This document shows, in pieces, positions 2,574 to 2,676 of a stretch of 64,000 bases of DNA. This DNA comes from Thiobacillus sp. (GTDB lineage Bacteria > Pseudomonadota > Gammaproteobacteria > Burkholderiales > Thiobacillaceae), in NCBI RefSeq assembly GCF_018780105.1, contig NZ_JADMKC010000004.1:124001-188000 (forward strand). Direction: 5' to 3'. The notes beneath the pieces are model-generated. The model was not told the DNA's origin. It ran no database searches and was given only the letters and a program-made list of their open reading frames with translations. Each line of letters begins with the position of its first letter. Position 1 is the first letter of the stretch. The translations under genes were made by a program, and so were the position numbers.

Positions 2574-2676
2574 GACGGTGTTTCACCGTCCCCCGCTTCT
2601 CCTCCCTGAGCGGGGTGCCTTAACGCATTAAGGCATCTTTAGCCCCGATCCTTCGTGTGGTCGGGGCTTTCTTTTT
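2574..2676 (+). ncRNA. Candidate small regulatory RNA in the Spot 42/ErsA position next to engB
   Basis: Four consecutive hairpins fill the plus strand. GACGGTG/CACCGTC is at 2574-2590 with a three-base loop. CCCCGCT/AGCGGGG is at 2591-2615 with an 11-base loop containing CTCCTCCC (2599-2606). TGCCTTAA/TTAAGGCA is at 2616-2635. The last, AGCCCCGA/TCGGGGCT at 2641-2668, is followed by TTCTTTTT. That last hairpin is an intrinsic terminator only in the plus direction, yet no plus-strand protein gene lies upstream, which argues for an independent transcript. The loop is complementary to GGAGGAG, a Shine-Dalgarno-like sequence. A weak -10-like TATCAA sits at 2566. The RNA points toward the 3' end of engB and overlaps it by about 38 bases, like spf beside yihA in E. 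coli. The same DNA could instead act as a hemB leader on the minus strand. Inferred from structure and synteny only. Confidence 0.5.

Follow-up and report, generated by a model that had tools for sequence, protein, structure and literature searches.

A plus-strand small RNA of the anti-hemB family beside engB in Thiobacillus sp., with a sigma-E-type promoter motif, a C-rich loop and likely kinship with ErsA and sX13

The window, which is the whole stretch of 64,000 nucleotides that was analysed, contains a short RNA locus on the plus strand between a divergent hemB gene and a convergent engB gene. The genes and features of the locus are summarized in Table 1. Homologues of the cytochrome c gene at 3396..4022 lie near engB in many relatives. 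In an earlier note on this DNA the gene had been called cytochrome c4; the weak profile matches agree with cytochrome c, and "c4" is that note's own label. The note had also stated that no plus-strand gene lies upstream of the RNA, and none is obvious, the plus-strand ORFs of at least 80 amino acids immediately before it being antisense to hemB. At its 3' end the RNA overlaps the final codons of the engB ORF in antisense, as had been proposed; this overlap is present in the window, whereas in relatives a gap, with medians of 38 and 19 nt, separates the RNA match from the part of engB that was aligned.

Table 1. Genes and predicted features of the RNA locus, in window coordinates
Feature	Position	Strand	Remarks
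hemB (porphobilinogen synthase)	1502..2518	-	divergent neighbour; NF006762, 507.6 bits
Putative sigma-E-type -35 element, GGAACTA	2538..2544	+	part of a GAAC-N17-TC match
Putative sigma-E-type -10 element, TCATTA	2562..2567	+	commonest form in relatives TC(T/A)(T/A)(A/T), 16-17 nt after the -35 hexamer
Predicted sRNA transcript	2572..2676	+	about 105 nt; predicted start set by the -10 element, predicted end by the terminator
Hairpin 1	2574..2590	+	arms 2574-2580/2584-2590; 7 bp, loop of 3; outside the Rfam model
Hairpin 2	2591..2615	+	arms 2591-2597/2609-2615; 7 bp, loop of 11; carries the candidate anti-Shine-Dalgarno loop
Hairpin 3	2616..2635	+	arms 2616-2623/2628-2635; 8 bp, loop of 4
Hairpin 4 and T-tail	2641..2676	+	arms 2641-2648/2661-2668; 8 bp, 12 nt between arms; intrinsic terminator
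engB (yihA/ysxC)	2639..3379	-	convergent neighbour; TIGR03598, 223.1 bits; common to both locus arrangements
Cytochrome c gene	3396..4022	+	third shared neighbour; weak cytochrome c matches, under the cut-offs

An inverted-repeat search recovered the four back-to-back perfect hairpins described in the earlier note at 2574-2676, the repeats themselves spanning 2574-2668. The last hairpin had been taken for a plus-strand intrinsic terminator; together with the T-tail TTCTTTTT (2669-2676) on its 3' side it was scored as a terminator-like site on the plus strand by a terminator scan. The loop of hairpin 2 (2598-2608) reads TCTCCTCCCTG and contains CTCCTCCC; it is C-rich as claimed, and it is almost invariant among relatives. 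The loop of hairpin 3 is not C-rich in the window and is C-rich in a number of gammaproteobacterial relatives. Many relatives carry a run of CCCC in the loop of the terminator hairpin; this run is absent from the window RNA (2649-2660), and only hairpin 2 is C-rich in this genome. The plus-strand RNA 2560-2676 has a folding energy of -51.8 kcal/mol, where shuffled versions average -29.0 (z -7.34) and 0 of 200 fold as well, and a longer stretch of the minus strand (2500-2676) gave a z of -3.76 against shuffles. With a start 5-8 nt past the -10 block, the predicted transcript measures about 102-105 nt.

The DNA was compared with Rfam 15 using cmscan. The anti-hemB family RF02837 matched 2589-2675 on the plus strand with 67.7 bits over the full model (1-81; cut-off 49.5), and this is the only match of the family in the whole genome. 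The match begins at 2589, and hairpin 1 and the promoter region lie outside it. The counterpart in Burkholderia cenocepacia J2315 is ncS04, described in the available part of PMC4603805 as a plus-strand RNA of 105 nt with a terminator, placed in a <- -> <- arrangement between BCAL0264 and BCAL0265 and co-purifying with Hfq. Excerpts of PMC5688073 report 3' RACE and Northern blot data for ncS04, and anti-hemB appears in the B. pseudomallei list of Khoo et al. 2012 as far as PMC3521395 was available. The window RNA shares with ncS04 and the anti-hemB family sequence and structure over the cut-off, strand, the orientation of the neighbours (divergent hemB, convergent engB), a terminator and about the same length. 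Family membership, together with the orientation and transcript data of ncS04, indicates that the strand is plus, as the earlier note had claimed for the sRNA, and that the RNA belongs to an already known, poorly understood family and is in this sense no novelty.

Conservation of the structure was examined in 22 sequences from the window's order with a hand-made model of four helices and 28 pairs. Both partners vary in 16 of the 28 pairs, and 90.0% of the cells are paired; 0 of 500 shuffles reached either value, and sliding the partners abolished the signal. Among 80 matches from both classes, such two-sided changes are seen in 27 of the 28 pairs (547 cells, where shuffled data give 140), in an alignment that was fitted to the structure and favours it. 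Changes on both sides were found in 7 of 7 pairs of hairpin 1 (22 sequences), in 6 of 8 and 8 of 8 pairs of hairpin 3 (22 and 80 sequences, respectively) and in 6 of 7 pairs of hairpin 4 (80 sequences), while the stem of hairpin 2 is invariant in the 22 sequences of the same order and changes on both sides in all 6 pairs among the 80. The covariation of hairpin 1, which lies outside the Rfam model, is new here. There is almost no variation in the loop core CCTCCCT or in the T-tail, and in the alignments the tail stands 3' of stem four as read on the plus strand; the rows had been picked by a model that contains both loop core and tail.

Two covariance models were used for the search for more distant relatives, R2 from the 22 sequences of the order only and R3 from the 80 matches; a further model, R1, was set aside, its automatic consensus lacking hairpins 1 and 3. 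E-values were obtained from short calibrations. R3 scored the window RNA (2558-2675), which is part of its training set, with 90.9 bits, against a background of 13.4 bits on the opposite strand of the RNA and at most 12.7 bits elsewhere in the 64 kb. In genomes with a listed RF02837 match, R2 found the RNA in 41 of 54 engB-downstream regions, 39 convergent with engB and 2 on the same strand; in genomes without a listed match, R3 found it in 27 of 80 such regions, convergent in 27 of 27, five of them (L151, L164, L167, L180, L212) belonging to the training set.

R3 was also applied to authentic members of other families outside its training set. A genuine ErsA locus (L226; RF01719, 121.3 bits) scored 27.8 bits (E 2.7e-6), and two genuine sX13 loci (RF02232, 116.7 and 103.2 bits) scored 33.6 and 30.5 bits (E 3.3e-8 and 2.4e-7). 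In a 5.5 kb E. coli locus the best R3 match (3394-3508) coincides with spf (3400-3510), with 11.4 bits and an E-value of 0.12, where the background reaches 12.7 bits. ErsA and sX13 are therefore above the R3 background and Spot 42 is not; any sequence kinship with Spot 42 would lie within that background. With the betaproteobacterial model R2, neither the E. coli locus nor the genuine ErsA locus was reported at E<=1, and only the wider R3 reached ErsA.

The family models overlap among themselves. In 7 of the 13 genomes matched by RF01719 (ErsA), RF02837 falls on the same place, which together with the R3 score supports the proposed kinship with ErsA; of the others, G603 has the two models at different places, in G337, G392 and G446 the RF02837 place is not listed, and for G464 and G558 the listing contains no RF02837 match. 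RF02232 (sX13) shares its place with RF02837 in 2 of 10 genomes (G473, G385). In the window's genome, no match at E<=0.001 was obtained with RF01719 (cut-off 50 bits), RF00021 for Spot 42 (80 bits) or RF02232 (50 bits). RF02837 also responded below the cut-off in the E. coli control genome. Two further places were noted: a tandem array downstream of engB in G473, whose copies are matched by the anti-hemB, ErsA and sX13 models below the cut-offs, and an engB-downstream region of G375 (L157, 237-389 and 421-568), where the sX13, alphaproteobacterial ar14 and anti-hemB models all match below the cut-off, possibly a bridge to alphaproteobacterial RNAs.

ErsA, whose locus is described as lying between polA and engB in the available part of PMC8575079, resembles the window RNA on the engB side of that locus, in promoter form and in homology detectable by R3; it differs in that the R3 alignment has an unaligned stretch in place of the hairpin 2 region. 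At the ErsA locus L226 polA lies upstream, and no engB match was found in 1.5 kb downstream. sX13 adjoins polA, has C-rich loops and is matched by R3 over its full length, but its -10 is not the same, the -10 of the family not being seen at the sX13 loci, and its 1.5 kb flanks yielded no match to engB; it is Hfq-independent according to the portion of PMC3771888 consulted. Spot 42 lies between polA and yihA/engB and is transcribed towards engB, and differs in its R3 score.

Another group considered was the double-hairpin group RF02278 (ncS27; S17 of Bordetella pertussis), whose CU-rich stretches are complementary to ribosome-binding sites, an activity that the available parts of the literature report from reporters for one S17 target and as predicted for others. 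Assignment of the window RNA to this group is the least probable of the readings considered. The 5' hairpin is similarly CU-rich, RF02278 scores weakly at 2587-2674, and R3 gives 16.8 bits, more than for Spot 42, on an RF02278-like copy in the same genome (L002). That copy, however, is a separate one elsewhere in the genome (L002:1501-1566; G000:C1:3703-3768) with 46.6 bits, just below the cut-off, and RF02278 RNAs have two hairpins and, in the literature excerpts, several unlinked Burkholderia copies. Membership was rejected on score, 19.1 bits against a cut-off of 50, where RF02837 gives 67.7.

RF02837 is over the cut-off in 164 of 250 sampled genomes of the window's order (192 at E<=0.001) and in 52 of 61 genomes of its family (58 at E<=0.001). 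In the class sample, own order included, it is over the cut-off in 21 of 369 genomes and reaches E<=0.001 in 168, many of these weak matches possibly being RF02278-like or due to chance; the neighbourhoods given here cover matches with listed coordinates. Limited flank lengths make gene absences at these loci weak. At 59 anti-hemB loci (L001, L003-L060), engB was found in the flanks of 56 and hemB in those of 55; in the flanks of one further match in the window's order (L061), none of engB, hemB and cytochrome was matched. At the class level, both places are listed for 56 genomes, own included; in 40 of them an RF02837 match lies at most 1.5 kb from engB and convergent with it, and in 16 none does. 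The engB places examined number 135 plus the window itself, out of 150 listed in 149 genomes; no engB match at the threshold was found in 53 of 369 class genomes.

The upstream neighbour differs between two arrangements. Among 28 class-level loci (L062-L089), polA lies upstream on the same strand in 15, hemB in 1 (L070, from the window's order), and engB is present in 16. Among at least 120 loci collected by DNA pattern (L240-L359), the matches listed include polA upstream in 14, hemB in 91 and engB in 67. In none of the 148 loci (143 distinct, 5 being in both sets) do polA and hemB occur together among the matches listed. Examples with polA upstream are an uncultured member of the Chromatiaceae (L285), Acidiferrobacteraceae (L296, L358) and Thiotrichales (L303); in Ectothiorhodospira mobilis DSM 4180 (L247) engB is present and no polA match was found within 2 kb upstream. 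The gammaproteobacterial arrangement, polA> RNA> <engB, is the annotated arrangement of Spot 42 in E. coli K-12, and a locus between polA and engB is likewise given for ErsA in an excerpt of PMC8575079. The locus is anchored by engB, not by hemB, and in the Betaproteobacteria hemB stands in place of polA beside the RNA. Because of this replacement, and because the family sits beside engB and/or polA, the name "anti-hemB" is misleading. The earlier note had placed the RNA in the Spot 42/ErsA position, which agrees with the polA and engB neighbours of the gammaproteobacterial RF02837 RNAs; in the window the engB side is the same and hemB occupies the polA side.

Several loci depart from these arrangements. 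Members of Ramlibacter, Caenimonas, Limnohabitans and Curvibacter (L242, L244, L250, L273, L301) keep hemB and have no engB match in the flank, perhaps a third arrangement. The RNA occurs in two to four copies close together at G473:C33:13148-13886 (L142, L227, L367), G564:C3, G580:C8, G288:C10, G137:C54 and G093:C12. Contigs labelled Chitinophaga, Akkermansia and Nitrospira (L337, L338, L271) carry the RNA pattern, which may reflect binning or naming errors; the place is the usual one at L338 (hemB) and L271 (engB). Metagenome bins labelled Bordetella parapertussis and bearing dated isolate names (L292, L324, L342) have the hemB/RNA locus and are possibly misnamed.

The distribution of neighbours bears on the other view given in the earlier note, that the hairpins act in cis on the minus strand as a hemB leader in which a GGAGGAG and a mini-ORF of 14 codons are hidden. 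The hairpins would form on that strand too, and the mini-ORF (GTG...TAG, 2586-2542, minus strand) is present, with an ORF at the same offset in 9 of 22 listed loci, own included. These ORFs vary from 7 to 22 codons, however, with 14 in 3 loci, and none occurs at that offset in 13 of 22. Gammaproteobacterial RNAs have polA, not hemB, alongside where either was found, the T-tail is on the plus strand, and the ncS04 transcript of B. cenocepacia is from the plus strand in the part of PMC4603805 available. A minus-strand leader is accordingly regarded as very improbable.

The region upstream of the RNA contains a candidate promoter. The -35 consensus of the relatives is GGAACT(T/A) in the betaproteobacterial and TGAACTT in the gammaproteobacterial loci, and the overall consensus, (T/G)GAACTT, 16-17 nt, TC(T/A)(T/A)(A/T), is the form of sigma-E/AlgU promoters. 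A loose scan for GAAC followed by TC after a spacer of 13-18 behind the hexamer, written after the upstream regions of L001-L089 had been read, found the pattern at 58 of 61 betaproteobacterial and 65 of 80 gammaproteobacterial RNAs, where 100 dinucleotide shuffles gave means of 8.2 and 7.5 and maxima of 17 and 15; it was absent from 3 and 15, respectively. Among 53 gammaproteobacterial regions not read beforehand it occurred in 43. One gammaproteobacterial locus (L142) was excluded, its upstream region being too short. A stricter scan with a spacer of 16-17 and a position limit, run without a shuffle control, gave 57 of 61 betaproteobacterial and 60 of 80 gammaproteobacterial RNAs (20 of 27 plus 40 of 53). 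A scan for sigma-70 promoters in 2300-2900 found none, which would fit another type of promoter.

The ErsA locus carries TGAACTT-N16-GTCATA, in form and spacing as in the family of the window RNA, and ErsA is described as dependent on AlgU (sigma-22) in available parts of PMC8395346 and PMC5819304. The window's genome encodes one RpoE over the cut-off (310.6 bits); upstream of the start of its gene lies GAACTT-N16-TCAGA, and RseA- and RseB-like ORFs follow it, as judged by reading. Upstream of E. coli spf (L090, 3374-3397) a loose GAAC-N16-TC was seen whose TC stands 4 nt before the annotated start, unlike in the family, either by chance or as a promoter relic. The motif and its spacing suggest that the window RNA may be under sigma-E control. 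Against such control counts the lack of sRNA induction by short SDS stress in B. cenocepacia: in the consulted parts of PMC5688073, 20 min of SDS (membrane stress) or H2O2 largely induced no sRNAs, values for ncS04 in these two not being tabulated, and for the seven conditions that are tabulated no significant change of ncS04 is given. The same excerpts characterize the promoter sequences of B. cenocepacia as largely uncharacterised.

These expression data also suit an alternative in which the RNA is an ordinary anti-hemB sRNA under housekeeping transcription, its likeness to ErsA and sX13 having arisen by convergence and the GAAC motif having another meaning. Further points in its favour are the modest R3 scores of ErsA and sX13, the low number of class genomes with RF02837 over the cut-off (21 of 369), the fact that RF02837 does not report the ErsA genome G464, and the occurrence of the loose GAAC-N16-TC upstream of spf at an unsuitable spot, by which the pattern alone proves little. 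Convergence would, however, have to account for a locus, an orientation, a four-hairpin plan and a motif spacing common to both classes, and for the coincidence of the ErsA, sX13 and RF02837 models on the same sequences, and it is considered unlikely.

The preferred reading, to which a probability of roughly two in three is given, is that the locus encodes a single plus-strand RNA of about 105 nt, a sigma-E-driven anti-Shine-Dalgarno sRNA that represents the betaproteobacterial form of a family including ErsA and sX13. The present analysis shows a structure of the RNA type with covariation, places the RNA in its family and locus, and provides the promoter motif and the link by covariance model to ErsA and sX13; control by sigma-E, dependence on Hfq in this organism and the identity of the targets are inferred. 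Under the preferred reading, envelope stress would free sigma-E, the RNA would be made from the promoter at 2538-2567, and transcription on the plus strand would end at the terminator at 2641-2676. The exposed loop of hairpin 2 (TCTCCTCCCTG) would then base-pair, probably with the help of Hfq, to G-rich Shine-Dalgarno regions in mRNAs and so keep these messages from being translated.

Two characterized RNAs serve as models for this step. sX13 represses reporters only with intact C-rich loops and intact G-rich target motifs (PMC3771888, in the portion available), and S17 of B. pertussis, from another family, is reported to act via stretches complementary to ribosome-binding sites (PMC11722255, from excerpts). 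By analogy with both, the loop of the window RNA should block Shine-Dalgarno regions. Targets were searched for in the genome with exact patterns. The pattern CAGGGAGGA-N3-12-ATG had 0 sites, and GGGAGGAG-N3-11-ATG had 3 sites against 1 for a reversed control, the three ORFs being unconvincing by reading. For the action on Shine-Dalgarno sequences put forward in the earlier note, no convincing target emerged from the exact-pattern searches of the genome.

Beyond this locus, anti-hemB, ErsA and sX13 are likely to form one engB/polA-locus family with a sigma-E-type promoter that spans two classes, and this wider picture is likely to be new: the search, which covered part of the literature, returned no statement linking anti-hemB with ErsA, sX13 or sigma-E. 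A more tentative extension, held to be slightly less likely than not, is that anti-hemB, ErsA, sX13 and, more distantly, Spot 42 descend from one sigma-E-driven engB/polA-locus gene with C-rich anti-Shine-Dalgarno loops in the ancestor of the Beta- and Gammaproteobacteria. The Betaproteobacteria would have kept the promoter and the loop while polA was replaced by hemB, and in enterics and vibrios the promoter and the loops would have been altered to give Spot 42. In the portion of the literature searched the anti-hemB family is without an assigned function, and the link to ErsA and sX13 offers for it the hypothesis of a sigma-E-controlled anti-Shine-Dalgarno RNA. The hypothesis concerns an sRNA present over the Rfam cut-off in about two thirds of the sampled genomes of the order (the 164 of 250 given above), and the question posed by Schmidtke et al., as it stands in the accessible part of their text, gains a wide and testable set of loci.

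Elsewhere in the window, tandem glycine riboswitch aptamers were found at 12331-12419 and 12435-12567 (65.4 and 51.3 bits), upstream of an ORF that by reading is gcvT-like (aminomethyltransferase).
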